A stretch of DNA of 64,000 nt from Fibrobacter sp. UWB2 (GCF_002210425.1 NZ_MWQK01000002.1:620001-684000), one strand, 5' to 3'; shown: positions 23,831 through 48,878, numbered from the stretch's first letter. Notes: a model not told the origin generated them from the sequence alone. Program-made: numbers and translations.

Positions 23831-23918
23831 AAAGACTCCTTTTTTAACGATATATAATTTAGAAAATTCATAGCCCCACATCCGTACTTATATTTTTATT
23901 ATAATTCCTTACGTGAAA

Positions 23919-25871
23919 ATGAAAAAATTATCTCTTTCCTTATTGAGTCTCGCAGGGCTTTCTGCGGGCATGTTCCTTGCGGCATCCTGTGCTGCTCCGT
24001 CTGTCAATCCTTCCGTGCAGGCTAATGAAGCTGCTCCGACGATTCACGTCCCGGTTTATGCGGCTCCTGTGACCGTCTTCGAAATGCGCGTGCTCGACAG
24101 GGATAAGCAAGTCCGCGTCGTCGAAAAGCCGACGTTTGCCGCTCTTGATTTTGCGGCGTACTTTGCAAACCCGATCCGCATGGCGGGCATGGATGAAAAG
24201 CCTGAAAATTACACGGGCAAGATGGCAAATGCAAAGCTTGAGGAATTCCCGTTCCCGATGCTCGACTCGATTTCGGATTATGAGCCTGCCGCGGTTGCCG
24301 GTGTAGCCCCGATTGCGTGGGAACCGTTTGCGAAGATCCTTTACGCGCAGACTGGTGATGATGCTCTTGCAAAAGCCTTGAATGAAGTCGAGGCGGTCAA
24401 GTGGAATGAACCCGATGTGTTCCGCGCTTTCCAGACGGTAAGCCGTTTGTGGGGTGTGCCTGGAACTGGTGAAAATCAGGGAAAGATTGAATGGTGGGCC
24501 GAAGTCATGCCTGCCGTTTGGACTGGCCGTACTCCGTTCTACGGTAAGCTCAAGGTCGTTTCGGGTGGTGAATCTCTCGAAGTCTTGAACTACTACATGA
24601 CGGCCGAGATGAACAATGAAGAGGCGATGAACTGGGCCCGTACGCTTTCGTCTTATTGGTACCCGACTTTGAATACCGATTTGGAACAACATACTCCGGG
24701 CGCTATTTGGGAAAACTCGAGTGCAAACCGCCCGTTTGCGGTGATGCGCGGAAACCCGATGGGAAGTCCCATGTGGGTTGCTTTTGAAGTTCCGGCGTTC
24801 CGTTTGACGGATGAACAGTTGCGTGCCGCTGCTGTTGCCGATTCTTTGGCTGCTGCGGGTGAAGTGGTGCCGGTGAACCGCACGCTTGATACGAGTTCTT
24901 ATGCTCGCCTGGAAACGCTTGCCGCTATGGAAAATAGCTGCCCTGCAACGCCTGCGACAAAGAAGTTCCGCGAAGCCTTGAAGAAAAAGCTTGCCAAGCT
25001 CCCGAAGGAACAGAATGCCTGGGCTGATAACGGAATGCTCTGGTTCCGCCGTAATGCAAACTACCTCGTTGCTGATAAAATTAGCGGTCAGGATAGCCTC
25101 CACAATCCGCTCCCGAGAATGATTGAACTCAAGCAGTACCTGGATTCCATGAACGTTCAGCTTCTTGTGATTCCTGTTCCTGTGAAAGAAGAAATCTATG
25201 CAGACAAGCTTGTAAAGGGAACACCTGCAGACTTGTGCGTGAACGTGAACGGCCGTGAGTTTATCCGCGAAATGCTCGCTGCCGGGATTGATGTGCTCGA
25301 CCTTTACCCGTCTCTGATGGCGGCCCGCAGTGGCGATGACGCTCCGCATTACAGCTACCAGCGCTACGATACGCACTGGGCTTTGCCGGGCATGCTTGCC
25401 GCAATGGAACAGCTCGCTTCTCGCGTGACGCAGTACAGTTGGTATGCCGATGCCAATCCGCAGCCGGGTAGCCTCGTGATGAAGGATACGGTTGTGCTCC
25501 GCGAAGGGGACTTGGTGGCTCATTTGCCGGATAAGGAAAAGTCCAAGTATGCCGCAGATACTCTTGCGGGCATGAAAATCTACAAGGGCGACAAGCCGTA
25601 CAAGGGTGGCAAAAATGCTCCGATCCTCTTGATGGGAGATTCTTTCACGGGTGTGTTTGAATCTGTGGACCAGAAGAGTGGTGGCCCGGGTTCCTTGCTT
25701 GCTTATGCAACAGGTCTCGATGTACAGGTGCTTACGAGCTGGGGCGGAGGCCCTGGCGTTCGTGCTCGCCTCAAGAAGATGAAAAAGGACATGTTGAGCA
25801 AGCGCCTCGTGATTTACATGATGACCGCTCGCGACTACTGGCAAAGCCCGATGGAATGGGACGGCCTGTAG
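23919..25871 (+). CDS. AlgJ/AlgX-like SGNH lipoprotein
   Basis: A lipobox (AASC, Cys near residue 24) indicates a lipoprotein. After about 370 residues without recognised domains comes an AlgJ/AlgX-type SGNH domain: LLVIPVPVKEEIYADKL, DVLDLYPSLMAARS, the DTHW motif at residues 484-487, and GDSF with the nucleophile Ser at 573-576. In alginate and related systems this fold O-acetylates polysaccharide in the periplasm, usually with an MBOAT partner, which is not seen here. The ATG at 23919 is preferred, but a GTG six bases upstream is equally possible; neither has a clear ribosome site. It begins the envelope cluster that runs to 39.9 kb. Confidence 0.8.
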   Translation: MKKLSLSLLSLAGLSAGMFLAASCAAPSVNPSVQANEAAPTIHVPVYAAPVTVFEMRVLDRDKQVRVVEKPTFAALDFAAYFANPIRMAGMDEKPENYTGKMANAKLEEFPFPMLDSISDYEPAAVAGVAPIAWEPFAKILYAQTGDDALAKALNEVEAVKWNEPDVFRAFQTVSRLWGVPGTGENQGKIEWWAEVMPAVWTGRTPFYGKLKVVSGGESLEVLNYYMTAEMNNEEAMNWARTLSSYWYPTLNTDLEQHTPGAIWENSSANRPFAVMRGNPMGSPMWVAFEVPAFRLTDEQLRAAAVADSLAAAGEVVPVNRTLDTSSYARLETLAAMENSCPATPATKKFREALKKKLAKLPKEQNAWADNGMLWFRRNANYLVADKISGQDSLHNPLPRMIELKQYLDSMNVQLLVIPVPVKEEIYADKLVKGTPADLCVNVNGREFIREMLAAGIDVLDLYPSLMAARSGDDAPHYSYQRYDTHWALPGMLAAMEQLASRVTQYSWYADANPQPGSLVMKDTVVLREGDLVAHLPDKEKSKYAADTLAGMKIYKGDKPYKGGKNAPILLMGDSFTGVFESVDQKSGGPGSLLAYATGLDVQVLTSWGGGPGVRARLKKMKKDMLSKRLVIYMMTARDYWQSPMEWDGL

Positions 25872-25887: not shown

Positions 25888-26610
25888 ATGCTTGCGCGAA
25901 TTTTTTGGCCTTTGTTCTTCGCGACGCTCGTGATTGCACTCCCGTTTCTGCTTTGGAACGGGAAAAGCGAATCCATGAGCTATCGCGAGATGGCGTGCGT
26001 TTTTGAAGAACGCGCGCCGGGTTGCCTTGATTCCATTAGCGACTGGCATGCGGGACTTGCTTACTTTGATAGTAACGTTGCAACGACTCACGATACTTTG
26101 CAATCCTTAAAGAATCTGCTTTGGCAATTCTGGAACATTGAATTTGCAGGGGCGGGCGAGGCGGCTGTTGCAAAAGAATCGGTGCTCCCGCTCCGCGTTC
26201 TTGCAAACAAAAAATCCGGTTGTATGGGGCTTTCTTGGCTTGCGCTTATGGTGGCCGAAGCGCGAGACTTGCATCTTGACGCCATTCTTCTCCCGGGGCA
26301 TGTCTTTTTGCGTTACGGCTCTTCGGACAGTTCCGTGAACTTGGAACCGAATCGTCGTGGTTTTACCTATACCGATGAAGAATATCGTGAAAAGTACCAA
26401 AAAGGCACTTGGACTGGCCTCGAATTTAAACCGCTTGAATCGCGACAGTTCATCGGGCTTGCTGCGTTTGATATCGGCAATTTGTACCTCGAAAACGACA
26501 TTCCGCGTGCGCTCACGTGGTACCGCATGGCCGAAGAATTCTTCCCGGAATATCCGGGAATTGAGGCAAATCAATCCATTGCGAAAAATAGATTGCCAAA
26601 TCCATTCTGA
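25888..26610 (+). CDS. Membrane-anchored SirB1/transglutaminase-like protein
   Basis: The 240 residues begin with one hydrophobic segment (about 5-23). The central part has SGCMGLSWLALMVAEA and LLPGHVFLRYGSSDSSVNLE. This Cys and His arrangement matches the SirB1/transglutaminase-like family, and a TPR-like helical segment (FDIGNLYLENDIPRALTWYR) closes it. It follows the SGNH lipoprotein by 16 bases, so both are probably co-expressed in the envelope. Whether it is a protease, amidase or non-catalytic adaptor cannot be told; the Cys-His pair is present. Confidence 0.65.
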   Translation: MLARIFWPLFFATLVIALPFLLWNGKSESMSYREMACVFEERAPGCLDSISDWHAGLAYFDSNVATTHDTLQSLKNLLWQFWNIEFAGAGEAAVAKESVLPLRVLANKKSGCMGLSWLALMVAEARDLHLDAILLPGHVFLRYGSSDSSVNLEPNRRGFTYTDEEYREKYQKGTWTGLEFKPLESRQFIGLAAFDIGNLYLENDIPRALTWYRMAEEFFPEYPGIEANQSIAKNRLPNPF

Positions 26611-26705: not shown

Positions 26706-29552
26706 ATGTCGAAGTCCTTTGCTCATACTTTCTTCTTTGGAAAGGTACTCTTTTTAGTACCGTTTTTGCTCGTTTTCTTTGGTTGTGATACATTTTTTGG
26801 AGAACACGTCTGGCTGAATGCCCCTGTCGAAGCGGACAACGCCCATGACGGACTGATTCTCATCAAGGCTTCGAAGGTAAAAAATTCGAGTGGCGGAACT
26901 CTTTCGTACTTGGGTACGTATGCGTCGTCAGCCAAGGCGAGCGAACGTCCGCAATTACGCGCCGCTTTGAATTATGATTTTTCCATGGGCATGCACGAGG
27001 TCACCTGTGCCGAGTTCAAAAGCATCATGGGGACTACTTTTGACGAACGTTGCAATGGCGAAGATTCGGATCTTTTGCCGGTGACCAAGGTGACTTATTA
27101 CGATGCCGTCCTTTATTCCAACGAACGGAGCAAGCGCGAAGGCTATGACACGTCGTACTCGTACACATTAACGACGTTTGATGGCAATGGAAACTGTATT
27201 TCGATGGAAGGCCTTGTGTTCCATCCGGAAGTTGATGCTTATCGTTTGCCGACCGAAGCGGAGTGGCTCATGGCGGCTGACCGTGACTGGAACCCGTCTG
27301 GGGAATGGAATGCGCAAAATTCTGGGTTCGAACCGAAAAATGTCTGCTCGTATCCTCGCCTTCACGGGGAGTTTTGCGATATGGGCGGTAACGTCAAGGA
27401 ATGGGTCTCGGACTGGCTTGGCTATTTCAAGGATACGACGATTACAAATTATGTCGGTGGGCCCGATGGGGGCGTCCTTGGCGAGCGCGTCATCAAGGGC
27501 GGCAGCTATCGCAACGAACCTTCTGCCATTAAGCTTTATAGTCGTGGCGATGTGTATGTCGTGACCTCTGCCGCAAAGTCTGAATATTTGGGTTTCCGCA
27601 TTGCGTTTGGAAAAATTCCGGGGGCTGTGTGGATGGGGCGCGATGGCAAGGCTCGTGATAGCCGAATCATTCCGATGGCGAGTGCGACAAACATCAAGAA
27701 CGCTTTTGATACGTACCGCACCATGCTCGTTTTCCGAAACGATGTCACGGGCAATTTGGCGTATGTCGATTACGTCAACGGGACTCTTTCCGTTACCGAA
27801 ATTTCGGATTCGATAGATTCGTACCATCCCGATATTTCACCGGATGGAAGGCTTGTGGTTTTCTGCACTGGTATGGAAGGCGTTTCTGGAAAGTCCGAGG
27901 CGTATATCCGTTCGCTTTCGACAAGTAACACAAAGCCCTTGAAAGTCAAGGCCGATGGAAACGTCTCGATTCCGCGTTGGCGCGTGCTCGAAAATGGCGA
28001 TACGGCGATTGTCTATGTGTCCGATGCCGGAAATAACAAAGATGATGGCGAGTTCAAGTCCAAGAGCACATGGATGGTGACGTACGGCAATGGCCGATTT
28101 GGTACGCCTCAGAAACTTTTTGATGGTGCTTACCATGGCGGAATTTCGGATGATTATAAGCTTGCTGTGACCGGAGCGCGCTTGTTGCGTGCTCGAGTGG
28201 CTCCTGCAGGGGGGACGCTTGCGAATGCGCGCGATACCGTCTGGTACAATGGCGAACAGGCTTGCAATGTGTCGCTTGCGACGGATGGCTCCAAACGTGT
28301 GGCTTTCCTCGATTTTGGCGGCAAAACCGGTGCCGATTTTGTGGGGGAAAGCTACGGAACGCATGAACGTTTGTTGATTGCCGATAGCACTGGTAAACTG
28401 ATTAAGGCGATTGCCGCTCCGGTTGGCTATAGCTTTGACCATGCAGAATGGGCGTTGAACTATGTGAGCCCGGACCCGGATGGTGGCCTGATTGTGGCGA
28501 CCCTTACGAATGCCAATGGAGCCCATACAAAAGTAGTCCTTGTGAATGTGGGGGATGGCTCTATTCTGGATTTGGTCGAGGGCGATGAACTTTGGCATCC
28601 GAGTATCTGGCGTAAAAAGATTTATGTGCCAGAAACGGATAAGCTGGACCCCGATAGCGCAGGCGTTTACTTGCGTCCCTCCGATAAGTGGGAATCCGTC
28701 ATTATGCGCTATAAGATGGAACTCCTCTGGAAATACCGCGATTCTGCGAATGTGGTCATTCTGGGGTCTTCGAGGCCGATGTTTGGCGTGACTCCGCTTG
28801 GTTTCAATAAAAAGTTCTTTGCCGTGAATTTTGGTCAAACTCCGAATTCCATATACATGTCGAGAGATTACTTGGACCATTACATCTTCAATCACATGAA
28901 GAACCTCAAGTACATTGTGGTTTCGCTGGACATTGATTTTTGGCACAAGGTAGATGGCCCGTACGGGGATAACTTCTTCTATACCGATTTCAGAAATTAC
29001 CCTGGGTACATTTATGATGAAAACCATGATTTCTGGAAAGACGGCTACCCGGAAGGCTTGCTTGAATTTACGGAAAACTCGGTAGGCTCATCGGATGAAC
29101 GCTATTACATGAAGGATCGTGGACGCTATTCGAATGCCAATTGCGGTTCCTGGCGCGAAGAGCCCGAAATCGAACAGGACAGTCTTTACCTGGATGAACA
29201 CAGAAATTTGATTGACGATAGCAAGGATGCGCTCCTGACTATTATCAAGGAAGCCGCAAAACGCGATATCCGCGTGGTGGGTCTCATTTTCCCGCAAAGC
29301 CCGGCGTATGCAGAAACGGGTGCCTTTGGCCGCTATGGACTCCGTCGTAGTTCTGCGGAAAAGCTGATTAACGAGCTTAAGTCCTTGAATAAGGAATATC
29401 CGAATTTTGTTGTGATGGATGAAAATAAAATGGGGAAGCATGACTATACCGATATGATGGCTGTAGATGAAGACCATCTCTGCTATGGCGGTAGCGTTGT
29501 TTTGACTTCTAGACTGAATGATCTCTTGTTGTCCTGGGAGGCAAAAAAATGA
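26706..29552 (+). CDS. Lipoprotein, FGE-fold + PD40 beta-propeller + SGNH-like (TIGR02171-type), paralog 1
   Basis: The lipobox Cys is at residue 27 (VFFGC). Residues about 50-300 are an FGE/sulfatase-modifying-factor fold: GMHEVTCAEFKSI, YRLPTEAEWLMAA, CDMGGNVKEWVSDWLG and a closing GGSYRNEP...LGFR. The paired catalytic Cys of true FGE are missing. About 320-640 is a PD40/TolB-like propeller (YHPDISPDGRLVVFCTG, IPRWRVLENGDTAIVYV). About 675-945 is SGNH-like with GSSR (about 686-689) and a late DEDHL. I believe this is the Fibrobacter paralogous family TIGR02171, function unknown. AGGAG precedes the ATG, and its end overlaps the next start by four bases. Confidence 0.8.
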   Translation: MSKSFAHTFFFGKVLFLVPFLLVFFGCDTFFGEHVWLNAPVEADNAHDGLILIKASKVKNSSGGTLSYLGTYASSAKASERPQLRAALNYDFSMGMHEVTCAEFKSIMGTTFDERCNGEDSDLLPVTKVTYYDAVLYSNERSKREGYDTSYSYTLTTFDGNGNCISMEGLVFHPEVDAYRLPTEAEWLMAADRDWNPSGEWNAQNSGFEPKNVCSYPRLHGEFCDMGGNVKEWVSDWLGYFKDTTITNYVGGPDGGVLGERVIKGGSYRNEPSAIKLYSRGDVYVVTSAAKSEYLGFRIAFGKIPGAVWMGRDGKARDSRIIPMASATNIKNAFDTYRTMLVFRNDVTGNLAYVDYVNGTLSVTEISDSIDSYHPDISPDGRLVVFCTGMEGVSGKSEAYIRSLSTSNTKPLKVKADGNVSIPRWRVLENGDTAIVYVSDAGNNKDDGEFKSKSTWMVTYGNGRFGTPQKLFDGAYHGGISDDYKLAVTGARLLRARVAPAGGTLANARDTVWYNGEQACNVSLATDGSKRVAFLDFGGKTGADFVGESYGTHERLLIADSTGKLIKAIAAPVGYSFDHAEWALNYVSPDPDGGLIVATLTNANGAHTKVVLVNVGDGSILDLVEGDELWHPSIWRKKIYVPETDKLDPDSAGVYLRPSDKWESVIMRYKMELLWKYRDSANVVILGSSRPMFGVTPLGFNKKFFAVNFGQTPNSIYMSRDYLDHYIFNHMKNLKYIVVSLDIDFWHKVDGPYGDNFFYTDFRNYPGYIYDENHDFWKDGYPEGLLEFTENSVGSSDERYYMKDRGRYSNANCGSWREEPEIEQDSLYLDEHRNLIDDSKDALLTIIKEAAKRDIRVVGLIFPQSPAYAETGAFGRYGLRRSSAEKLINELKSLNKEYPNFVVMDENKMGKHDYTDMMAVDEDHLCYGGSVVLTSRLNDLLLSWEAKK

Positions 29553-32299
29553 AACGAGAAGCCTTTGCAAATATCGGGTTCCTTGCATTTTTTGCGTTGA
29601 CTCTAGCGCTTTTGAATTCGTGTACCGATCACAACAGTTCTCTTTCTTCGGGAGAACCTTCGCCTGTCGATTCGGATATTGAAGGTTTTGCCTTCGTAAA
29701 GGCTAGTGGTCGGTCGGCACTTTTGGGGACTAATTTGAATAGTGCCCGCAAGAGCGATACGCCCCAGATGGAAGCTTATTTTACGTATGACTTTTACATA
29801 GGCGAGCATGAGGTTACCTGTGGTGAGTACCACGCCTTGCGCAAGGAGGCTGGTGCCAAGTGCGATGGCATATATGGTAACAAAAGTCCCATCACGAACG
29901 TGACTTTTTATGATGCAGTCCTTTATGCCAATGCCAAAAGCAAGAGCGAAAACCTTGATACCGTTTATACGTACACTAGCGCTTCTTTTGATGCGTCCGG
30001 CAGTTGCGACAACTTGACGGGACTCATCTTCCATGAAACTGTGAAGGGGTATCGTTTGCCGACGGAAGCCGAATGGGTCTATGTGGCAAGCAAGGGCTGG
30101 GATCCTGAAAAGGGCTGGAATAGCGTCAATTCGGATTATACGTTCCATGATGTGGCGACATCTCCGGCGAACCCTCTTGGCGTTTACGACATGGCTGGTA
30201 ACGTCCTTGAATGGGTAAATGACTGGATGACTTATTTCCAGAAAGAGGCGGTGACTAATTTTGTCGGCGGTGCCGATGAAGGTAGCCTTGGTGAACGCGT
30301 TGTCAAGGGGGGCAGTTACAGGAATGAACCTTTGGCGATAACCTTGTACAACCGTGGCGATGTCTATACGGTGACTGGCTCAAGCAAGGGCGATTATCTT
30401 GGGTTTAGGCTTGCTTTAGGTGAAATTCCCAACGCTTCTTGGCTTGACGAAAACGGCTCTGTCAAGGAATCTGTCGTGAAGTCGCAGATAGCCATTTTCG
30501 AAATGAAACACTTGACGGGAACGTTTGAATCCAAGCTTGTATTCCGCAATGACATATCGAGCAATTTGTCCTTTATTGATTTTGGAAGTGGCGTTATTTC
30601 CGTTGTCGAAATCGACAATACGGAGAAGGCTTATCACCCCGATATCTCACCAGATGGCAAGCGCGTGGCGTATAGCACGAGCATTGAAGGTTTGGGTGGA
30701 GTATCTAGCGTTTATGTGCGCAACCTGGATGCAACGGGTTCGGACCTTGTCAAGCTGGATGTTGAAAATGCCGCTATCCCGCGCTGGAAACTTTTGGAAA
30801 ATGGCGATACGGCGATTGTCTATGTGACTAGTTCCGCAAATAACAAGGACGATGAAGCATTTGCGGCTACGAGCACATGGCAGGTGCCTTTTAACAATGG
30901 CAAGTTTGGCAAGCCCAAAAAGCTCTTTGATGGCGCTTATCATGGCGGCGTGAGTGCGACAAAGCAACTCGCTGTTTCTGGCGCGAGACTTTTGCGTGCT
31001 CGAGTTGCCCCGAGCGGGAAAACGGTTCTTAATGGAATCGATACCGTCTGGTATGGCGGTGAACAGGCTTGTAATGTGTCTTTGGCTAATGACGGTAGCG
31101 ATAGAACGGCCTTCCTCGATTTTGGTGGCAAGACGGGTGCAGAATTTGTAGGCCAGTCTTACCGCACGCATGAACGCCTCTTGATTGCTGATGCGAAGGG
31201 AAAACTCATACAGAGTGTTGCAGCTCCGAAGGGTTATACCTTTGACCATACGGAATGGGTGCTGGGTGGCTCTAATTACGTTGTTGCAACGCTTGCCAAT
31301 GCCAGTGGCGCCCATCAGAAAATCGTATTGATTAACTTGTCCGATAGCACGGTGACAACTCTTGCCGAAGGCGATGAACTCTGGCATCCGTGCCTGTGGC
31401 ATTCTAAAAACCTCTATAACAGCAAGGAACTTGATACCGATAGCGCAGGCGTCTATTATTTGTCCAGTGCCTATTATAGCGCTTTGGAACTTCGTGTGAA
31501 AATGCAGCGATTCTGGGAAAATCGCGATGAAATTACAGCCGTCGCCCTGGGCTCTTCGCGCACGATGTTCGCCTTGCACGACAAGGATGTCGAATCGCAC
31601 CACTTGCTCAATATGGCCTATTCCGCGGGGCAAATTACGGGAATGGGGTATTTGTTTGTCAACTATGTGCTGAACCATCTCAAGAATTTGAAGGTCCTGG
31701 TGCTTGAACTTTCTCCGGACTTCTTATGGTATGACGGCTTTTCGACATGGATAAATATTATATACAATAAGGTCCCGGGCTTCAAGTACGACGAAAACCA
31801 CAATTTCTGGGTTGATGGCTTGCCGGAACATTTTGTCGACGCCGTAAAGGTGACCCCGCGCCCGGAAACGGCGCTTCAGCATCCTTATACGCTAGAAGAT
31901 TTCTTGCTTCCGGATGCTACATGGGGGTATCCGGTATTGCTGAGAGATTCCACGGAGGCTGAATTTGATTCTCCGGTCTACAAGGAAAATTTTGAGTGCT
32001 TTAAGTATGTGATAAAAATAGCTCGTCAGAAGGGGCTCAAGGTCGTTGTGACAATCCTACCGCAGAATCCTGCATACGCAGAGACGGGCTCGTTTGGCGT
32101 TTATGGTCCAAGAAAGAGTATTGCCAAGGATGTTATTGATTCCATAAAGGCAATGGATGTTATATTTTTTGATGAATACAAGTTCGGAGCTCATGACTAT
32201 ACGGACGAGATGGCGTATAACGTTGACCACTTGAGTACATCAGGTGCAAAACAGTACACCCATAGACTTGATTCGTTATTGTCGACTTTAAAAAAGTAG
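29549..32299 (+). CDS. Lipoprotein, FGE-fold + PD40 beta-propeller + SGNH-like (TIGR02171-type), paralog 2
   Basis: The lipobox Cys is residue 25 (LLNSC). The domain order repeats that of the upstream gene: GEHEVTCGEYHAL, YRLPTEAEWVYVA, YDMAGNVLEWVNDWM, GGSYRNEPLAI, then YHPDISPDGKRVAYSTS, and an SGNH-like end with GSSRTMF (about residue 667) and NVDHLS (about 891). Compared with paralog 1 the C-terminal half is more divergent than the propeller. Its ATG overlaps the previous stop (ATGA), with GGGAGG as ribosome site inside the upstream gene, so the two are translationally coupled. Confidence 0.8.
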   Translation: MKREAFANIGFLAFFALTLALLNSCTDHNSSLSSGEPSPVDSDIEGFAFVKASGRSALLGTNLNSARKSDTPQMEAYFTYDFYIGEHEVTCGEYHALRKEAGAKCDGIYGNKSPITNVTFYDAVLYANAKSKSENLDTVYTYTSASFDASGSCDNLTGLIFHETVKGYRLPTEAEWVYVASKGWDPEKGWNSVNSDYTFHDVATSPANPLGVYDMAGNVLEWVNDWMTYFQKEAVTNFVGGADEGSLGERVVKGGSYRNEPLAITLYNRGDVYTVTGSSKGDYLGFRLALGEIPNASWLDENGSVKESVVKSQIAIFEMKHLTGTFESKLVFRNDISSNLSFIDFGSGVISVVEIDNTEKAYHPDISPDGKRVAYSTSIEGLGGVSSVYVRNLDATGSDLVKLDVENAAIPRWKLLENGDTAIVYVTSSANNKDDEAFAATSTWQVPFNNGKFGKPKKLFDGAYHGGVSATKQLAVSGARLLRARVAPSGKTVLNGIDTVWYGGEQACNVSLANDGSDRTAFLDFGGKTGAEFVGQSYRTHERLLIADAKGKLIQSVAAPKGYTFDHTEWVLGGSNYVVATLANASGAHQKIVLINLSDSTVTTLAEGDELWHPCLWHSKNLYNSKELDTDSAGVYYLSSAYYSALELRVKMQRFWENRDEITAVALGSSRTMFALHDKDVESHHLLNMAYSAGQITGMGYLFVNYVLNHLKNLKVLVLELSPDFLWYDGFSTWINIIYNKVPGFKYDENHNFWVDGLPEHFVDAVKVTPRPETALQHPYTLEDFLLPDATWGYPVLLRDSTEAEFDSPVYKENFECFKYVIKIARQKGLKVVVTILPQNPAYAETGSFGVYGPRKSIAKDVIDSIKAMDVIFFDEYKFGAHDYTDEMAYNVDHLSTSGAKQYTHRLDSLLSTLKK

Positions 32300-32324
32300 A
32301 TTATAAGGTATAAGGGGAGCAAAT

Positions 32325-35081
32325 ATGAGATATCTTTTAATTGCTTTATCGGCGCTTTTATATGCATGTACTGATTCTAACAGTACAACGGGATTTAACG
32401 AAGATGCTGTGAATACAGCTGAAGATTCCCTTTCGGGTATGATCCGTGTTTCTGGAAATGCCGTGGCTCACTTGGGAACAAATGACGCTACGGCAAAGTC
32501 TACGGAACGCCCGCAAATGGATGTCCTGTTGACCTATGATTTTTCGATTGGAAAAAATGAGGTGACTTGTGGAGACTTCAATGCCTTGATGAAACCGGCA
32601 ACGGGGCTCAAGGTGAAGTGCATTACGAATATGTATCCGGCAACGGATGTGACTTATTACGATGCGGTGCTTTTCGCGAACGAACGTAGCAAGTCCGAGG
32701 GGCGCGATACCGCCTATACGTATATCGCGACTCAGTTTGATGATGGAAAACATTGTACGAACTTGGATGGTTTTGCCTTCCACCCCGAAGTCGATGGTTA
32801 CCGTTTGCCGACCGAAGCCGAATGGTCTCTTGTGGCGAAGGCAGCTTGGAACGCTGGTGGCTGGACTGCCGAGAATTCGGACTATCAGCTCCATGAAGTT
32901 TGCGGCAAGTTTGATAAGAATACGAAAGTCTGCGATATGCTCGGTAACGCCATGGAATGGGTGAACGATTGGTATGGCGGATTTTTGGATACGACTTTGA
33001 CAAACTATGTGGGGTCTCCGGATGCGGGCATGTTTGGAATGCGCGTGGTCAAGGGCGGTAGCTATAGGAATGCGTTAAATTCAATCCATCTCTACAATCG
33101 TGGCGACGTGTACCCAGTAACTTGCTCGAGCCATGTGGACTATGTCGGGTTCCGCCTGGCTTATGGCTCTATTCCTGATGCGGTGTGGCTTGGCTCTAAT
33201 GGAAAGCCGGCAACAAGCCGCGTTGTATCGCTTGCCAATTCTACAGTCATTCGTTCTCAGACGGGGACATATAAAGTGAAGCTTGCTTTCCGTGACGACC
33301 TTACGGGAAATCTGGCTTATATTGATTACTCGAGCGGCGCTTCGGTTGTAAATGAAATTGTGGATAACATCCCCGTGTACCACCCTGAAATATCACCTGA
33401 TGGGAAAAAGGTTGCGTTCTGCACGAATATTGAAGGCCTTTCAGGAAAGTCTGAAGTTTATGTGCGCGACTTGAATACCTCGGGATCAAACCTCGTGAAA
33501 CTCGATGTCGAAAGTGCCGCAATCCCGCGCTGGCGTGTGCTCGAAAACGGTGATACTGTGATTGTGTATGTGACGGAAGCGGGCAATAACAAGGATGAAG
33601 CTTCATTCAAGACCGCGTCTACGTGGCAGGTCAAGTTTGCAGATGGCAAGTTTGGCAAACCTGAAAAACTTTTTGATGGCGCTTATCACGGTGGTGTCAG
33701 CGAAGACAATCGCCTTGCCGTTACAGGGGCGAGAATCCTGCGTGCACGTATCGCAAAGCCGGGTTCTACAGTTATGACTGATGCGGTTGACACGGTTTGG
33801 TACAAGTATAATGACGAGGCGGAACAGGCCTGCAATGCCTCGCTTGCAAAGGATAGCAGTAAGCGTACCTTGTTCCTCGATTTTGGCGGCAAGACTGGTC
33901 AGAGCTTTGCTGAAACGAGTTACATGACGCATGAACGCTTGCTTGTCGTGGATTCGACGGGAACGCTTGTCCAGTCGGTGGCGGCACCGAGCGGATTTAC
34001 ATTTGACCATAGCGAATGGGCGTTTGGCGCCCGTAACATTGCCGTTGCAACGTTGACAAACATAAATGGTGCGCATTCAAAGATTGTGCTGCTTAATTTG
34101 TCGAAAGATCAGCAAATCGAACTCGCTGAAGGTGATGAACTTTGGCACCCGAATCTGTGGGTGAAAAAGGATTTTGACCTGGATGACGACTTGATGCTCA
34201 ATCTCGATAGTGCAGGCGTGTACTTTAGAGAAGGGCAAGACTGGGCGCACATTTCGATGGGCTACAAGATGTCGCTTTTGTGGAAGTACAGAAACGATGT
34301 CGAAATCCTGTGCGTCGGTAGCTCGAGAACCGAAAATAGTGTGATGGTCACGTCGATTACATCTGGTTTTGCTCTGAACACTGGGCATTCGGGTAACGAC
34401 ATGAACGCCTCGCTTTATGTTGCCGAAAACTATGGCCTCAACCATTTGAAAAAACTGAAGAGCATCGTGGTATCCCTGGATTTGGACCTTTGGCACAACT
34501 CCATGGAATATACGGAAATCCTGATTGCGACGACACCGGGATTTGTGTACGATGCTAGCCATGGATTCTGGACTTCTGGATTGCCGGATGGCTTCTTGGA
34601 AGCGGTTGAGCTTTCTTCGCAGTATTCCGATGTGGCAAGGACGATTTATGAACCTACACGTGGATTCTTTAGCGATGTGGGCTCGGGCTGGGGGAATGCT
34701 TCTGTGGAACTTGACTCTAACTGGCATGGCGATGTCGGCATGCAAAAGATTGAATGGAACATCAAGCGCTTGAAGGACTTCATTATCAAAACGGAACCTT
34801 TGGGCGTGAATATCGTTGGCGTCATTTTCCCGCAGAATCCGGGGTACCGCAATACCGGTTCTTGGGGCCGTTACGGACCGAGACGCTCTGTGGCCAAGGA
34901 TATCATGGATTCCCTCAGCAAGTTCCAGAAACAGTATCCGCATTTCCATGTGCTAGACGAAAATAAGAGTGGATATCATGACTATGAGGATGACTGTGCG
35001 GTAAATACGGACCATCTGAGTTTAATTGGTGCGGCCAAAGTCACGGGGCGTATTGATTCACTACTGAAAACGCTGAAGTGA
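32325..35081 (+). CDS. Lipoprotein, FGE-fold + PD40 beta-propeller + SGNH-like (TIGR02171-type), paralog 3
   Basis: The lipobox Cys is residue 15 (LLYAC), giving the shortest leader of the four. GKNEVTCGDFNAL, YRLPTEAEWSLVA, CDMLGNAMEWVNDWY (GNA in place of GNV) and GGSYRNALNSI mark the FGE-fold. YHPEISPDGKKVAFCTN begins the propeller, and GSSRTENSV (about residue 664) with NTDHLS (about 895) marks the SGNH-like domain. AAGGGGAGC precedes the ATG 25 bases after the previous stop. The family role is unknown; all four presumably sit in the outer envelope as lipoproteins. Confidence 0.8.
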   Translation: MRYLLIALSALLYACTDSNSTTGFNEDAVNTAEDSLSGMIRVSGNAVAHLGTNDATAKSTERPQMDVLLTYDFSIGKNEVTCGDFNALMKPATGLKVKCITNMYPATDVTYYDAVLFANERSKSEGRDTAYTYIATQFDDGKHCTNLDGFAFHPEVDGYRLPTEAEWSLVAKAAWNAGGWTAENSDYQLHEVCGKFDKNTKVCDMLGNAMEWVNDWYGGFLDTTLTNYVGSPDAGMFGMRVVKGGSYRNALNSIHLYNRGDVYPVTCSSHVDYVGFRLAYGSIPDAVWLGSNGKPATSRVVSLANSTVIRSQTGTYKVKLAFRDDLTGNLAYIDYSSGASVVNEIVDNIPVYHPEISPDGKKVAFCTNIEGLSGKSEVYVRDLNTSGSNLVKLDVESAAIPRWRVLENGDTVIVYVTEAGNNKDEASFKTASTWQVKFADGKFGKPEKLFDGAYHGGVSEDNRLAVTGARILRARIAKPGSTVMTDAVDTVWYKYNDEAEQACNASLAKDSSKRTLFLDFGGKTGQSFAETSYMTHERLLVVDSTGTLVQSVAAPSGFTFDHSEWAFGARNIAVATLTNINGAHSKIVLLNLSKDQQIELAEGDELWHPNLWVKKDFDLDDDLMLNLDSAGVYFREGQDWAHISMGYKMSLLWKYRNDVEILCVGSSRTENSVMVTSITSGFALNTGHSGNDMNASLYVAENYGLNHLKKLKSIVVSLDLDLWHNSMEYTEILIATTPGFVYDASHGFWTSGLPDGFLEAVELSSQYSDVARTIYEPTRGFFSDVGSGWGNASVELDSNWHGDVGMQKIEWNIKRLKDFIIKTEPLGVNIVGVIFPQNPGYRNTGSWGRYGPRRSVAKDIMDSLSKFQKQYPHFHVLDENKSGYHDYEDDCAVNTDHLSLIGAAKVTGRIDSLLKTLK

Positions 35082-35144
35082 TAACGGATTTGGTACTTTT
35101 TGGGATGATGGAAAGTTTGTATATTAGTTCCAAGGAATCGTATT

Positions 35145-38081
35145 ATGAAAATTTTTGGAATGAGTAAAGCTTTAGTCTTGGGTGTTACAGCCTTATCCGT
35201 AACTTTCCTCGAATCCTGTTCGGATTCTCCGACGCAGACTGAAATGGGTTCGTCCCTTGTCTGCTCATCGTCCGAAAACTGCCGTGATGTTTCTTTGCAG
35301 GATGGTTTTGCTCTGATCAAGTCTTCTGGAAAGTATACGGAACTAGGGACGAATGTCAAGTCCGCTCCGCAAAAAGAACGCCCCCAGATGGATGTCAAGT
35401 TTGCATACGATTTCCAGCTTGGCAAGCACGAAGTCACCTGTGGTGAATTCAACGATGTGATGGGTAAAGATAGCCACCTTAAGTTGGAGTGCTCGAACAA
35501 AAATTTACCTGCCGTCAACGTGACGTTCTACGATGCCGTTCTCTTTGCCAATGCCAAAAGCAAAAAGGCAGGGCTAGATTCGGCCTATAGCTATACTTCT
35601 GCAGAATTCAATAAAAGTGGCAATTGCGTCCTTCTGGAAGGTTTCAAGTTTGATCCGAATGTCGATGCGTTCCGTTTGCCGACCGAAGCCGAATGGGTTT
35701 TTGCGGCAGGGATTTCTTCGAATGCTGAAAACAGCTGGAATGCCGGAAATTCCGATTTCAAGGCTCACGAAGTCTGTGGCAAAAAAGATGAAAACGGACT
35801 TTGCGATTTGTTCGGCAACGTGACGGAATGGGTGAACGACTGGCTTGGGAGTTTCCGCGATACGACAATTACAGATTACGTGGGTGCCACGAATGGTGGT
35901 AGCCTTGGCGAACGCGTCATCAAGGGCGGTAGCTTCAGGAGTGAAACTTCTGCAATTACCCTGTATGCACGTGGCGATGTCTATACGGTTACGGGAGCGA
36001 GTTCTTCGGAATATCTCGGCTTCCGTCTGGCGTATGGCAAAATAAGCAATCCGGTTTGGCTTGATGCTTCGGGCGATGTCGTGGCATCGAACATTTCTAT
36101 TGTGACCTCTTCGAAAAAAATCTCGTCGTTTTTTGGAATTTCACGTTCTAAGCTTGCGTTCCGTAACGATGTGACGGGAAACTTGGCTTATGTTGATTTT
36201 TCAAGGGTTTCTCCAACGGTTGTTGAAATCAAGGATTCGCTCAGTGTTTATCATCCCGATATTTCGCCAAATGGCAAGCGCGTGGCTTTCTGCACGGGGC
36301 AGGAGGGCATTAGCGGTAATTCTGCAATCTACGTCCGCAATTTGGATGCAGACGGGAGCTCACTTGTAAAGCTTGACGTGAAGTCGGCGGCGATTCCGCG
36401 CTGGCGCGTGCTCGAAAATGGCGATACCGTGATTGTGTACGTGACGGATGCTGGCAACAACAAGGACGAATCTACTTTCAAGGCTGCGTCTACATGGCAG
36501 GTGAAGTTTGCAGATGGCAAGTTTGGCGAACCATCCAAACTCTTCGATGGCGCTTATCATGGTGGTATTAGCTCCGATGAAGCGTTGACGGTCTCTGGCG
36601 CTCGCTTGCTCCGCGCCCGTGTTGCCGCAAAGGAATCGACGGTAAAGTCGAAGGCCGAAGATGTTGTCTGGTATGGTAACGAACAGGCTTGCAATGCTTC
36701 GCTCAACAAGACGACCAAGCGTACGCTGTTCCTTGATTTTGGTGACGAAACGGGAATCAAGTTTGTCGGTTCCAAATACCGCACGCATGAACGCTTGCTG
36801 ATTGCCGATAGCGATGGCAAGCTGGTTTCTTCTGTCGGGGCTCCTGCGGGTTATACGTTCGACCATAGCGAATGGGTTCTGAATGACGAAAAAATGGCCG
36901 TTGCCACCCTTACAAATGCTGATGGCGCTCATCAGAAGATTGTTCTTGTGGACACGAAGGATAATTCTGTGACGGATATTGTCGAAGGTGATGAACTTTG
37001 GCATCCGTGTTTCTGGACGCCGTCGGATAAGTCCCAGATTGCATCGGATTGGGACGCTGATAGCGTTGGCCACTACGTGTCTGCGGCAAACCAAACGAAT
37101 TACCTGCTTTCGCACAAGATGTCAATGTTCTGGAACCTGAAGGACTCTGTCGAAGTCGTTGGCCTTGGCAATTCTCACTTGTGGGCAGGTTTTGCGGCTC
37201 CCGAAATGAGCAAGCCTGCAATGAACATGGGCGTTGTGCCGTGTGATATGCACTGCATGCATTACCTCTTTAAAAATTATGTCTTGAACCATTGCCCGAA
37301 GGTGAAATATGTTGTCTTGAGCCTTGATATCGACCTGTGGTACAATATCGACCCGCGTACTGATATCAATGCGGGCATGGGTGGCGCAGCGGGCTTTGTG
37401 TATGACCAAAGTCATGAATTCTACCCGGAAGGCGTCGATGCTAACTTTGTAAAGCTGGTCATGGATAACGCTACGGACGATGCCGGTGAAATCATTGAGG
37501 CGCGTGGTTGGCATGCCGCCACGGAAAATCTCGGCTGGACGGACGAAAATGGTGTTTCCGTCATGAGCGGAGATTCAACCTGGAGCGATTGCCTGTTCAA
37601 CAAGAACCTTGCCAATTGCCTTGTGGATATGGACCAGAATACGTGCCTTTCCAATTACACGATGGATGTGTGCGTGCCGGATACGAACTTGAACATGTGC
37701 CTTGCGAAGTCTGATTTGAACCAGTGCTTGGCTATTTTCTCGGGCGATGTGGACAAGCTCAAGGACTTGGTGCGCTTGGCCAAGGAAAACGACATTACGG
37801 TGATTGGCGTGATGTTCCCGATTAGCCCGTATTACAAGACTACCGGAACTTATGGACGTCACGGTATGCGCCGCAGCCACGCAAAGGCTTTGATCGAAGA
37901 GATTGAAACGTGGGCCGAAGGCAAGTCGAACTTTGTCATCATGAACGAGAATAACTTTGGTGACCACGATTACGCATCCTCTATGGCAAATGATTCTGAC
38001 CATTTGAACAAGGACGGCGCTAAGAAAGTCACGGCTCGCATTGACGAGTTGATAAAGTCGCTGGAAGCCAAGTCCAAGTAA
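35145..38081 (+). CDS. Lipoprotein, FGE-fold + propeller + SGNH-like, paralog 4, with period-9 cysteine insert
   Basis: The lipobox Cys is residue 25 (FLESC). GKHEVTCGEFNDV, FRLPTEAEWVFAA, CDLFGNVTEWVNDWL and GGSFRSETSAI define the FGE-fold; YHPDISPNGKRVAFCTG begins the propeller. The SGNH-like block differs: GNSHLWAG (about 673) replaces GSSR, while DSDHLN (about 951) is kept. Residues 816-861 are an insert with Cys at 816, 825, 834, 843, 852 and 861, exactly nine apart, with units like CLAKSDLNQ. At 978 residues it is the longest paralog. AAGGA precedes the ATG, and the 63-base gap may hold its own promoter. Confidence 0.8.
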   Translation: MKIFGMSKALVLGVTALSVTFLESCSDSPTQTEMGSSLVCSSSENCRDVSLQDGFALIKSSGKYTELGTNVKSAPQKERPQMDVKFAYDFQLGKHEVTCGEFNDVMGKDSHLKLECSNKNLPAVNVTFYDAVLFANAKSKKAGLDSAYSYTSAEFNKSGNCVLLEGFKFDPNVDAFRLPTEAEWVFAAGISSNAENSWNAGNSDFKAHEVCGKKDENGLCDLFGNVTEWVNDWLGSFRDTTITDYVGATNGGSLGERVIKGGSFRSETSAITLYARGDVYTVTGASSSEYLGFRLAYGKISNPVWLDASGDVVASNISIVTSSKKISSFFGISRSKLAFRNDVTGNLAYVDFSRVSPTVVEIKDSLSVYHPDISPNGKRVAFCTGQEGISGNSAIYVRNLDADGSSLVKLDVKSAAIPRWRVLENGDTVIVYVTDAGNNKDESTFKAASTWQVKFADGKFGEPSKLFDGAYHGGISSDEALTVSGARLLRARVAAKESTVKSKAEDVVWYGNEQACNASLNKTTKRTLFLDFGDETGIKFVGSKYRTHERLLIADSDGKLVSSVGAPAGYTFDHSEWVLNDEKMAVATLTNADGAHQKIVLVDTKDNSVTDIVEGDELWHPCFWTPSDKSQIASDWDADSVGHYVSAANQTNYLLSHKMSMFWNLKDSVEVVGLGNSHLWAGFAAPEMSKPAMNMGVVPCDMHCMHYLFKNYVLNHCPKVKYVVLSLDIDLWYNIDPRTDINAGMGGAAGFVYDQSHEFYPEGVDANFVKLVMDNATDDAGEIIEARGWHAATENLGWTDENGVSVMSGDSTWSDCLFNKNLANCLVDMDQNTCLSNYTMDVCVPDTNLNMCLAKSDLNQCLAIFSGDVDKLKDLVRLAKENDITVIGVMFPISPYYKTTGTYGRHGMRRSHAKALIEEIETWAEGKSNFVIMNENNFGDHDYASSMANDSDHLNKDGAKKVTARIDELIKSLEAKSK

Positions 38082-38100: not shown

Positions 38101-39894
38101 ATGTTTTTGCCTCTGATATTGATCCCTATCGCGGTTGCGCTCTTTGCGATTTTTCCGCTGACAGATACCGATATCTGGTGGCATTTAGCGTGTGCGCGTG
38201 AATGGGTGACGACATGGACTCCTGTGCGCGAGCCTGTCGTGAACGTGCATCAGTATTTTCAACAGACTGTAGCGCTTGTTTATGATATTGGTGGCGCTCC
38301 GCTGTTGGTCGCGTTTAAGGCTATCCTTTGGGGCATTGTCTTTGTGCTGTTCTTGTTGCCCTCGATGCTCTCCCCAAATTTGAATAACGAAAACGCCGTT
38401 GATTCTCGTGGCGATATTTCTCCGGTAACGTTTGCGGGGATTGCGGTCCTTCTCTTTATTTTCCGCTACCAATTTGAAATGCGTCCAGTGCTTTTAAGCA
38501 TGCTGTTCCTCGGCATTTATTGGAACGTGTTGCCTTGGCTCTTTTTCGGTTGGCGCGAACGTAATGTGGAGCGTAGCTCGATATCCAAGAAATTTCATCA
38601 TGTGCTGCACCTGACGTTCCATGATGTGACGAAACTGTTTAAGTTTCTAGGTGTGCTTCTAATCCTTTTTATCCAGTGGATTTGGTGCAAATGCCAGGGG
38701 CTGTATATTCTGGGATTGGTCTTGGCATTTGGCTTTTTCTCGTACAGTCTCTGGTTCCGGCGTTGGGTGCGATTCGGAAAGGTAAGGCAATGGAATGGGG
38801 TACGAATCCCGCTTAGGACGATTGCATGGCAGATTCTCTTTGTGATTCTCCTTTTTGCAATGCCGTTCTTCCACCATGATGGTTTGGACTTGCTTCCTTA
38901 TCCGTTTGAGTTGCTGGATCGTTTGCTTGGCCTTTCTCCTTCGGCAATTATTTTTTCGAATGAAATTGCGGAGAACCGTTCGCCGATTACGCTTTTGCTA
39001 AACGGTGAAAATGTGTTGCAGTCCGCCTTGATGCTTGTGCTTTGTGTGGCTGGGATTGTTCTTGCTGCGGTCCGTTGGTATTTGCAACCTTCGCCTGACG
39101 CTTCGTGGCAATTGTCGTGGCAGACGAATGAACGTGTCGAGGCTATTTTTAATCGCAGGATGCTCCCGTCCTGGCTATTTATCACTGCGATTCTCGCTCT
39201 TGTTGCCGAACGCAACTTTGTTCTGTTTTTGCCGATTTTTGTGGCCATTGTTGTGCATTTTTCGATGCGGCCGTCGAGTTCAAACGTGAAACTCAAGAAT
39301 ACAAAATTGAAAATCAAAAATACAAGTATAAAGCTCAAGAACCGTCTTGCTGAAAAGTCGCGAAAGCTTGGCTCTAAGCTAAAGCTTAAAGGGAAACTGG
39401 CTCAAAAAACGCGCAATTTGAGCCATACGTTGAGCCCGCTTTTGACGTCGGAATTTTTGCTTGCGGCTGTTGTTTTGGCTTTTGTATTTGGACACTGGAG
39501 CAAGTCGCTTTCGGCTTACGATTCTATGGTGGCCTACCAGCGTGTGCCTGTGGGGGCCGCGCATTGGATGATGGAAAATCCGCATCCGGGCAGGTTGTTT
39601 AACGATGACCGTGCGGGAGGCTATTTGGCTTTTATGAACCCGCTCGATTCGATATACATCGATGGGCGTTTTATCTTGAAAACGGCAGATTTCTTTGAAC
39701 GTTATCTGGCCTATGCGAATATGCCTCGGCTCTTTTTGGTGGATGCCGATTCGCAGGATATCGACCGTGTTGTGCTCCCGCTTCGCTATTATGCAAGGTG
39801 GGATAAATTGCTTGCAACGCTTGATTCTAGCGAAAAATGGCACGTTGCGTACCGCGACTCCCTTTTTGTCGTGATGGACCGCACATTGCGCTAA
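38101..39894 (+). CDS. Polytopic GT-C-like membrane protein
   Basis: The 597 residues hold about ten hydrophobic segments. The N-terminal TDTDIWWHLACAREW and the C-terminal HPGRLFNDDRAGGYLAF ... IYIDGRFI are landmarks of large membrane proteins related to GT-C/PMT-type glycosyltransferases. The acidic TDTD loop after the first helix is where such enzymes bind metal or lipid-linked sugar. Between the last two helices lies a cytosolic-type Lys-rich stretch with repeated KLKN and KIKN units (about residues 395-440). It starts 19 bases after paralog 4, so it is probably co-transcribed. A role in glycan assembly is inferred. Confidence 0.65.
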   Translation: MFLPLILIPIAVALFAIFPLTDTDIWWHLACAREWVTTWTPVREPVVNVHQYFQQTVALVYDIGGAPLLVAFKAILWGIVFVLFLLPSMLSPNLNNENAVDSRGDISPVTFAGIAVLLFIFRYQFEMRPVLLSMLFLGIYWNVLPWLFFGWRERNVERSSISKKFHHVLHLTFHDVTKLFKFLGVLLILFIQWIWCKCQGLYILGLVLAFGFFSYSLWFRRWVRFGKVRQWNGVRIPLRTIAWQILFVILLFAMPFFHHDGLDLLPYPFELLDRLLGLSPSAIIFSNEIAENRSPITLLLNGENVLQSALMLVLCVAGIVLAAVRWYLQPSPDASWQLSWQTNERVEAIFNRRMLPSWLFITAILALVAERNFVLFLPIFVAIVVHFSMRPSSSNVKLKNTKLKIKNTSIKLKNRLAEKSRKLGSKLKLKGKLAQKTRNLSHTLSPLLTSEFLLAAVVLAFVFGHWSKSLSAYDSMVAYQRVPVGAAHWMMENPHPGRLFNDDRAGGYLAFMNPLDSIYIDGRFILKTADFFERYLAYANMPRLFLVDADSQDIDRVVLPLRYYARWDKLLATLDSSEKWHVAYRDSLFVVMDRTLR

Positions 39895-39925: not shown

Positions 39926-39982
39926 GCTAATAATTTATTTTTAGATAGATTTAACGGCCCTGTGTGGGCATTGGAGTTGTGT

Positions 39983-41431
39983 ATGAATCGTTTGGTGAAA
40001 ATGGGTCTTGCCGGCCTGTTCGCTTTTGGACTTGCCCAGGCTAAGGTGAACTTCCCGTTCCCGCAAATGTCCGATTACGGTGGAAATGCGACGCTTTTGA
40101 GCGACAAGGCCAAGGCTTCCGAAGAATTGAAGTCCCAGTTTGCTTACTGGATGAAGGCCATGTACAACGAACAGGGCGATGTTGCCGGTGTTCGTTCCGA
40201 TCCGGGTTCCGATACGTATTTCTCGGAAGGTGTCGGCTACGGCATGCTCCTGATGGTCTACTTTAGTGACAATACGACGAGCTATCAGCCGCAATTCGAC
40301 AAAATTTGGAACTTCTACAAGAAGATGATGAACGAAAACGGCTTCATGATTTGGAAGGTCGGTAACCTTTCTCAGTCGTGGGATGCCGGTAACGGTGCCG
40401 CTCTCGATGGCGATATCGATGCTGCCGCCGCTCTCGTGATGGCTTACTACCAGTTTGGCGATGAAAAGTACAAGGAAGACGCCAAGAAGCTCATCCAGTC
40501 CATGAAAAAGTCCGAATTCGAATCGAACGGCTTGCATTTGCCGGGCGACAAGTGGGGCGATGCGGGTTACAACCGCAAGAATCCGGGTTACTTTGATCCG
40601 GCCTACATGCCTGTCTTTGCCATGATCGATACCGAAAATGCTGAATTCTGGAGCAAAACCGCTTACGAAGCCAACATGAGCCTTTACGAAGCAAGTGCTT
40701 CTGACGCTCCGTCGACGGGCCTCATTGATGACTGGACCGACAAGAACGGCAAGAGCGAAGACGACTATTACAGCTACGACGCTTCTCGCGCTCCGTGGCG
40801 TAATGCGAAGGCCGTCTGCTGGCATGGCGATCAGCGCGCACTCGCACTCGACAAGAAAATGGCTGAATTTGTCTCTACCGTCAGTGCTGCAAGTATGAGT
40901 GGCCCTGTGATGAGAAAGTCCGGTAGCCTCGGTAACGATCACAACAGCACGTTCGTGACCTCTCTCATGACTTCGCTTATCTCTGATGCAAAGTACCAGG
41001 CTAAACTTGATGAATACTGGAAAGAGGCGGTTGCTCTCGGTGACGAAAACTACTTCAACCAGTCTCTCAAGCTTTTGAATGGTTTGCTCGTTTCGGGTAA
41101 CATGCCGAACCTCGCCGCAGCTACTCCGACTCAGCCGACTTCTTCGAGCTCTGTGACTCCGGAGTCTAGCTCCAGCGATGCTACGATTGCCTTGCCGACT
41201 CTTGCAACGAAATCTCCGAAGATGACCCTTTCTGGCAGGACTCTCCAGATTGCCGCCAATGGCAATGTCCGCGTAGATTTGATTTCTATGACGGGTAGCG
41301 TGTTGAAGTCTTTCGACAATCATGCCAATGGTTCTTTGAATGTTTCGCTGAAGTCTGTCCCGAACGGTCTCTATGTCGTTCGCGTGAAAAATGCTGGCGT
41401 CACGAGCCTCAAGAAAATCAAACTCGACTAA
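39983..41431 (+). CDS. Secreted endoglucanase, GH8, with C-terminal sorting-type domain
   Basis: The start at 39983 has a GGAG site; a longer frame upstream adds no plausible leader. A signal peptide (to about residue 20, AQA) precedes the GH8 barrel with YFSEGVGYGM (general-acid Glu82) and ALDGDIDAAAAL (Asp142-146), then the DDYYSYDASRAPWR region. A Ser-rich linker (SSSSVTPESSSSD) and a C-terminal domain (VDLISMTGSVLK ... VPNGLYVVRVK) follow. It should cut beta-1,4-glucan outside the cell. It lies next to the Ser-rich modular protein, which is consistent with a cellulose-related neighbourhood. Confidence 0.92.
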   Translation: MNRLVKMGLAGLFAFGLAQAKVNFPFPQMSDYGGNATLLSDKAKASEELKSQFAYWMKAMYNEQGDVAGVRSDPGSDTYFSEGVGYGMLLMVYFSDNTTSYQPQFDKIWNFYKKMMNENGFMIWKVGNLSQSWDAGNGAALDGDIDAAAALVMAYYQFGDEKYKEDAKKLIQSMKKSEFESNGLHLPGDKWGDAGYNRKNPGYFDPAYMPVFAMIDTENAEFWSKTAYEANMSLYEASASDAPSTGLIDDWTDKNGKSEDDYYSYDASRAPWRNAKAVCWHGDQRALALDKKMAEFVSTVSAASMSGPVMRKSGSLGNDHNSTFVTSLMTSLISDAKYQAKLDEYWKEAVALGDENYFNQSLKLLNGLLVSGNMPNLAAATPTQPTSSSSVTPESSSSDATIALPTLATKSPKMTLSGRTLQIAANGNVRVDLISMTGSVLKSFDNHANGSLNVSLKSVPNGLYVVRVKNAGVTSLKKIKLD

Positions 41432-41473
41432 AAGCTAAAACAGCGAAGCCCGCTTCTGCGGAAAAACTTTAAA

Positions 41474-41506
41474 AGTCCGGGAATTGTGAATTCTCGGGCT
41501 TTCTTG
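41474..41506 (+). terminator. Terminator after the GH8 gene
   Basis: CCGGGAATT-GTG-AATTCTCGG forms a 9-bp stem with one mispair or wobble, followed by GCTTTCTTGTTTT. Confidence 0.65.
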
Positions 41507-48662: not shown

Positions 48663-48791
48663 AGTGAAGCCAAATTTAGTTTTTTTTCATTATTTGAAAA
48701 TGTTTTTTGGCGTTTAAGGCGATAAAACGCGCAATTTGGCGAATTTTGGGTAATTGCTCGCATGAGTAGTACACGAAATGCGGCGCAACTG

Positions 48792-48835: not shown

Positions 48836-48878
48836 AGCGGAGTTCTTTAAAACGCCTGAATTTTGTATATTCAACTGT

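Follow-up and report, generated by a model that had tools for sequence, protein, structure and literature searches.

TIGR02171 lipoproteins of Fibrobacter as probable multi-domain SGNH members of an MBOAT-SGNH-type O-acylation system

Among the closest described counterparts of the locus reported here are the MBOAT-SGNH systems PatA/PatB, DltB/X/D, AlgI/J/X and WssHIFG; for PatA/PatB and DltB/X/D, the role of the FxYxxF motif as a shuttle and the hand-over from MBOAT to SGNH protein are established (PMC12148441). A window of 64,000 nucleotides of the Fibrobacter sp. UWB2 genome (NZ_MWQK01000002.1:620001-684000), that is, the whole stretch of DNA that was analysed, contains four tandem genes of the lipoprotein family TIGR02171. 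The Ser and His of the SGNH domain and the C-terminal FxYxxF of the MBOAT are common to the known systems and to the SGNH domain and candidate MBOAT considered here, and AlgJ/AlgX-like partners are also shared, being encoded in one gene row with the MBOAT in related genera. However, in TIGR02171 proteins the SGNH domain is fused behind an FGE fold and a TolB-like propeller in a lipoprotein, and it occurs in 6-10 versions per Fibrobacter genome, often distant from the MBOAT. We consider it probable that the TIGR02171 proteins, as SGNH members with several domains, take part in the O-acylation of an envelope polymer by a system of the MBOAT-SGNH type. The family as such was already known. As far as the literature was searched, its proposed functional role and the exchange of modules described below are new, and no paper was found that mentions TIGR02171 or the combination of the three domains.

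A sequence-only reading of the window had reported four tandem open reading frames with a three-part build at positions 26706-38081. These proved to be real and to encode an FGE fold, a propeller and a C-terminal SGNH domain:

26706-29552, plus strand: W1, TIGR02171 lipoprotein 1, 948 aa (TIGR02171 1170.9 bits; Pfam FGE E 3.4e-24)
29549-32299, plus strand: W2, TIGR02171 lipoprotein 2, 916 aa (TIGR02171 1425 bits)
32325-35081, plus strand: W3, TIGR02171 lipoprotein 3, 918 aa (TIGR02171 1462.6 bits; full-length AF2 model)
35145-38081, plus strand: W4, TIGR02171 lipoprotein 4, 978 aa, GNSH variant (TIGR02171 1142.1 bits)

In a profile search, NCBIfam TIGR02171 (Fb_sc_TIGR02171) covered all four proteins nearly end to end, and the curated cut-off for the full profile, 544.35 bits, was exceeded two- to threefold, while the sole domain firmly seen by Pfam was FGE-sulfatase (E 1e-22 to 1e-28). 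The reading frames of W1 and W2 share 4 nt (29549-29552), and the genes that follow are spaced at 25, 63 and 19 nt. A consensus scan found no terminator-like sites between the cluster genes. As had been claimed, a lipobox Cys ends the signal peptide in all four proteins, with an imperfect lipobox (FFGC) in W1, and it is also present in nearly all relatives. The motifs proposed for the C-terminus needed some correction: GSSR does not extend to W4, which has GNSH, and the DxDHL end reads DEDHL, NVDHL, NTDHL and DSDHL in W1-W4, so that its first Asp is not general. With pairwise identities of 44-49% overall, a likeness far beyond chance, the four proteins are, judging from their sequences, old paralogues. 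W1 holds the first position among them, and its orthologues occupy the same place in other species.

The UWB2 genome contains eight full-length copies, namely W1-W4, two on contig C6 and two on contig C4, and additionally one stand-alone C-terminal SGNH domain. One of its members, at C6:129764-132493 (L046 8752-11496), is divergent, with the motifs GSSM and NPNHV, and is retained as one unlinked orthologue in each of four other genomes (G101, G104, G105 and G136). The family name carries no function or domain reading, in agreement with the earlier statement that none had been assigned. The accompanying claim that the family is limited to Fibrobacter did not hold, as 86 of the 168 Fibrobacterota genomes had members scoring over the cut-off, and several families of this phylum have an SGNH domain of the TIGR02171 type. 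Searches with patterns drawn from the FGE domain found no TIGR02171 outside Fibrobacterota, and the most distant relatives are solitary genes. In a member of the Chitinispirillaceae, a TIGR02171-like gene is directly followed by one whose 801-aa product ends in a canonical GDSL domain (L069 4515-6920), so that two SGNH genes stand in tandem there.

The first of the three domains has the FGE fold:

26892-27605, plus strand: FGE-fold domain of W1
29717-30415, plus strand: FGE-fold domain of W2
32436-33161, plus strand: FGE-fold domain of W3, residues 38-279 (Pfam PF03781)
35340-36032, plus strand: FGE-fold domain of W4

The domains of W1, W2 and W4 are equivalents of that of W3. A profile of ten members matched TvpA of Treponema best (2y3c, E 5.5e-30), followed by human FGE and PorK/GldK; the fold and the motifs RLPTEAEW, GNVxEW, GGSY and GFR are common to these proteins and TIGR02171. 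The segment GGSYMCHRSYC of human FGE aligns with GGSYRNETSAIK, a stretch without Cys, and the FGE cysteine pair (human Cys336/Cys341, GGSYxCxxxxC) is absent from all 66 members of the set. On the known mechanism, its absence from every member excludes formylglycine chemistry, and the assignment of the domain as a formylglycine-generating enzyme or sulfatase activator was therefore rejected; unlike that enzyme, the domain is also built into a lipoprotein. The TvpA match raised the idea of a diversity-generating retroelement target, but the GGSY...GFR segment is conserved rather than hypervariable. Elsewhere in the window, the gene directly upstream of the AlgJ-like one (50337) encodes a secreted protein with an FGE-sulfatase domain (48762-50297, Pfam E 3.2e-20); when set against G104, the earliest start codon in the open reading frame of this protein seems to lie too far upstream.

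The second domain is a propeller:

33222-34190, plus strand: TolB-like beta-propeller of W3, residues 300-622, with equivalents in W1, W2 and W4

Pfam PD40 matched it below threshold only. The full-length AF2 model of W3 is modest (pLDDT 72.6, pTM 0.49), with a poor FGE part and a better propeller, for which the top PDB match was TolB (1crz, Foldseek E 8.8e-11, 328 columns). The sequence profile against TolB (4r40, E 9.7e-6) agrees with the fold match, making TolB the best fold and profile match of the TIGR02171 propeller; however, TIGR02171 proteins do not have the N-terminal domain of TolB, and the window locus is not tol-pal. A build like that of S9 peptidases, with a propeller over a hydrolase, is not claimed: prolyl oligopeptidases were listed by Foldseek over about 700 columns, but with a TM of about 0.2 and an rmsd of about 26 A.

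The C-terminal part had been read as SGNH-like, and structure prediction with a fold search bore this out:

28638-29549, plus strand: SGNH domain of W1, residues 645-948, Ser689, His924 (AF2 and fold search)
31400-32296, plus strand: SGNH domain of W2 (alignment; profile search of own genome)
34167-35078, plus strand: SGNH domain of W3, Ser667, His897 (alignment)
36981-38078, plus strand: SGNH domain of W4, GNSH type with insert (alignment; profile search of own genome)

Modelled alone, the W1 C-terminus gave an AF2 pLDDT of 82 and a pTM of 0.87, and Foldseek matched it at probability 1.00 to PAF acetylhydrolase (3dt8, E 3.5e-5), GDSL acylhydrolases and PatB (7tjb), with 4iyj and 4ppy also among the fold matches. 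Of 12 PDB matches at E <= 0.001, 11 were SGNH enzymes or acylhydrolases and one was a designed scaffold; no sequence match of the domain to a solved structure was found. Ser667 and His897 (W3 numbering), together with Gly665 and Asn685, are invariant in 68 of 68 aligned members and likewise in a further, overlapping set of 66. Ser667 follows strand 661-664 as the first residue of helix 667-672, which is the place of the block I nucleophile, and His897 precedes the last helix (900-917), which is the place of block V; the W1 and W3 models agree in setting the Ser of GSS where strand 1 ends and the invariant His immediately ahead of the final helix. Three residues upstream of the His, the Asp of block V is not conserved (Asn in 43, Asp in 24 and Ser in 1 of the 68), and no conserved block II Gly or block III Asn was found at the places expected from motif spacing. 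Ser-His dyads are known in CE2 (PMC9487903), and SGNH transferases and AlgX likewise deviate from the canonical SGNH blocks (PMC9487903, PMC12148441); the deviations are thus compatible with a transferase rather than proof of one.

The degenerate oxyanion motifs could also be taken to mean that the SGNH domain is catalytically dead and forms, together with the FGE fold and the propeller, a carbohydrate- or protein-binding surface receptor for adhesion or sensing, the copies of which differ in ligand. The Cys-less FGE fold, resembling those of the ligand-binding TvpA and PorK/GldK, and the TolB-like propeller would suit such a receptor. Nevertheless, binding folds have no need of an invariant Ser and His, and both residues are retained throughout the two overlapping sets despite a paralogue identity of 31-39% in the SGNH domain; we regard this account as quite unlikely.

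The four genes are part of a conserved cluster, the remaining members of which, together with a related gene downstream, are the following:

23913-25871, plus strand: AlgX-like protein with permuted SGNH motifs, DTHW at 486 and GDSF at 575 (Pfam ALGX E 7.1e-18)
25888-26610, plus strand: transglutaminase-like (SirB1-type) protein, a cluster member (Pfam Transglut_core2 E 1.2e-9; cluster conservation)
38101-39894, plus strand: multi-pass membrane protein containing LTDTDIWWHLA; its place right behind the TIGR02171 genes is conserved
39962-41431, plus strand: GH8 glycoside hydrolase with a T9SS tail (Pfam GH8 E 5.2e-27; in 6 of the compared regions)
41472-41538, plus strand: two terminator-like hairpins, which would end the cluster (consensus scan only)
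50337-52199, plus strand: second AlgX/AlgJ-like protein, DTHW at 359 and GDSF at 540 (Pfam ALGX E 7.6e-25)

The AlgX-like gene is the first of the cluster, and its product also matched AlgJ (4o8v, E 1.3e-3). In nine Fibrobacter regions, the gene order is AlgX-like, transglutaminase-like, 2-5 TIGR02171 genes and the multi-pass membrane protein, often followed by GH8, and the cluster order was also found in another genus (G144). No Pfam family was recognised in the membrane protein, even though it is kept with the cluster across genera. GH8, the last gene ahead of the hairpins, is perhaps a passenger. Both AlgX-like proteins of the window belong to PF16822 and have the AlgJ/AlgX motifs DxHW and GDSF, and relatives of the second directly follow the MBOAT in other genera (L194 and L195, with 69-70% identity in the C-terminal portion). 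In AlgX, a circular permutation places DxH ahead of GDS, whereas the TIGR02171 SGNH domain has the canonical Ser ... His order and does not match PF16822; homology between this domain and the AlgX-like neighbour was rejected, no similarity being detected by BLAST or hhalign (probability 0.1%). The window also contains, on the minus strand at 44217-48662, a 1481-aa open reading frame that starts like a CoA-dehydratase activator (WVGVDVGSTTVKIAVVD) and is 99% conserved in G104.

The neighbouring GH8, or a GH5 cellulase in other species, and the top fold matches to esterases and acylhydrolases would fit a second alternative, in which the SGNH domains are esterases stripping acetyl or other acyl groups either from the acylated polymer of the cell itself or from polysaccharides of plants, for instance acetylated xylan, while the FGE fold and the propeller would bind glycans. 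The first case would resemble Ape1, which removes acyl groups beside PatA/PatB. Fibrobacter is rich in xylan acetyl esterases (PMC3079729), an abundance that also favours this second alternative. However, the Gly of block II, the Asn of block III and the Asp of DxxH, which typify classical hydrolases, are not conserved, T9SS tails are found on the glycoside hydrolases and on none of the TIGR02171 lipoproteins, the AlgX/MBOAT context is biosynthetic, and an SGNH protein coupled to an MBOAT in G154 is of the TIGR02171 type. An esterase function for the family as a whole therefore appears unlikely.

This coupling in G154 is the most direct link of TIGR02171 to an MBOAT: the MBOAT gene, the product of which ends in FIYFQF, overlaps by about 30 nt the gene of a 328-aa stand-alone SGNH protein, and a full TIGR02171 gene lies near the pair on the opposite strand. 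The 328-aa protein matches both the TIGR02171 SGNH profile (E 2e-12) and DUF1574 (PF07611, E 2.5e-6), thereby tying the TIGR02171 domain to the GSS-type SGNH proteins, although the window SGNH domains gave no direct match to DUF1574 in Pfam. The UWB2 genome encodes two MBOATs, both ending in FxYxxF. One of them, at C1:543 kb, ends in NPFLYFQF and is located on another contig than the cluster, with no recognised SGNH gene adjoining. In G044 and G146, which belong to two other genera, its orthologue heads the row MBOAT(FxYxxF)-AlgJ-like-AlgX-like-transglutaminase-like-membrane protein, with a TIGR02171 gene 2.8 kb beyond this row in G044, and in at least nine Fibrobacter species an MBOAT of this type is found within about 8-10 kb of the cluster. 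The other MBOAT (L162 5348-10817, C1:573 kb) ends in FIYFQF, follows two GDSL-type proteins and is a separate MBOAT-SGNH locus; MBOATs of its type occur also in genomes without TIGR02171.

Of 80 Fibrobacter genomes, 65 have both the SGNH domain and the MBOAT of the C1:543 kb type, 14 have neither and 1 is discordant. According to the SMC protein tree, the absences within Fibrobacter represent one or two events, and a Fisher p-value among these 80 genomes consequently means little; what counts is that one clade has lost the three components, TIGR02171-SGNH, AlgX-like protein and MBOAT, together. All three are present in genera g3, g5, g6, g7, g8 and g10 and none in g2, g4 and g9, with g11 as the exception. 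Outside the family, some MBOAT was found in 20 of 21 SGNH-bearing genomes versus 14 of 35 others (p 4e-5, with kinship ignored). The dependence on an MBOAT is not absolute, since G015 (97% complete) has a TIGR02171-like protein without one; in G150, the MBOAT and AlgX orthologues are absent. Altogether, TIGR02171, the AlgX-like gene and the MBOAT are mostly present, or lost, as a set. Inside the clade that lost the system, G065 (genus g1) has TIGR02171 matches in which the SGNH part scores only weakly, and no MBOAT or AlgX orthologue, which may reflect contamination, re-acquisition or decay.

The SGNH domain evolves separately from the FGE-propeller chassis. Among the window copies, variation is greatest in this domain, with pairwise identities of 31-39% versus 50-62% in the other domains (FGE 50-56%, propeller 56-62%). 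Copies 3 and 4 of G104 are 83-87% identical in the chassis and 38% in SGNH, with a sharp drop near residue 600, while G104 copy 3 is 98% identical in SGNH to its counterpart in G130 and 89-91% in the chassis, the fourfold-site identity of these two being 0.93 in SGNH against 0.64-0.69 in the chassis. In AU tests, the SGNH domain rejected two groupings of the chassis tree with log-likelihood losses of 310 (p 1.6e-5) and 183 (p 1e-76), where the size of the loss weighs more than the p-values because the groups were picked after the identities were known. A tree built from nine genomes (66 SGNH domains) shows types that are shared between species and mostly represented once per genome. No recent gene conversion was detected among W1-W4, the longest exact matches being 24-30 nt. 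The stand-alone domain of UWB2 is a 338-aa SGNH lipoprotein encoded on C1 between SurE and SpoU genes (L050 9663-10679, minus strand); at the SurE/SpoU site, G062 (L164) carries two full-length TIGR02171 copies, the SGNH end of one of which is 53% identical to it. Given this site and identity, the chassis was probably lost there and the SGNH domain kept.

Several divergent copies with a variable SGNH end might be expected of antigenic or phage-receptor variants under diversifying selection, and antigenic variation had been proposed for the tandem. Yet W1-W4 have same-order orthologues in another species, G101, with 68-93% identity in every domain, and the conservation of SGNH types across species indicates a kept repertoire; we consider diversification of this kind very improbable. 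Differing donor or acceptor specificities are favoured instead, and what varies from copy to copy is chiefly the SGNH domain rather than the propeller.

We thus return to O-acylation, a reading that rests on the separate selection of the SGNH end, its intact Ser and His, and partners that are acyltransferase genes. The earlier suggestion of acyl transfer or removal on a surface polymer is upheld to the extent that the genomic context indicates acyl-group chemistry on an envelope polymer and that neither the Ser of GSS nor the late His varies among the aligned members. In the scheme that we infer for the donor, the acceptor, the catalysis and its direction, the MBOAT, whose gene lies elsewhere in the genome, would first attach an acyl group to the Tyr in its FLYFQF shuttle at the C-terminus. 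From there, AlgJ/AlgX-like proteins and the SGNH domains of TIGR02171 would accept it on Ser and hand it to different acceptor positions or polymers, the target being presumably a surface or periplasmic polysaccharide; some copies may instead remove the acyl group. The FGE fold and the TolB-like propeller would act as a conserved, probably non-catalytic chassis holding or gating the SGNH domain at the membrane. With SGNH domains swapped on this chassis, each species could keep about 6-10 acceptor specificities. One could tentatively go further and propose a modular acylation kit, in which one MBOAT donor serves genome-wide the 6-10 SGNH heads recombined on a constant FGE-propeller chassis.

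TIGR02171 is a multi-copy lipoprotein family in a major group of rumen cellulose degraders, and the acylation link would give it a first function, a biochemical test, a donor gene and candidate active-site residues. If correct, it would also reveal a new build for such systems, with an FGE fold, a TolB-like propeller and an SGNH domain in one lipoprotein, and a diversification of acyl placement through exchange of the SGNH domain alone. Should the kit model hold true, a cellulose degrader could write several acyl patterns onto its surface polymers.
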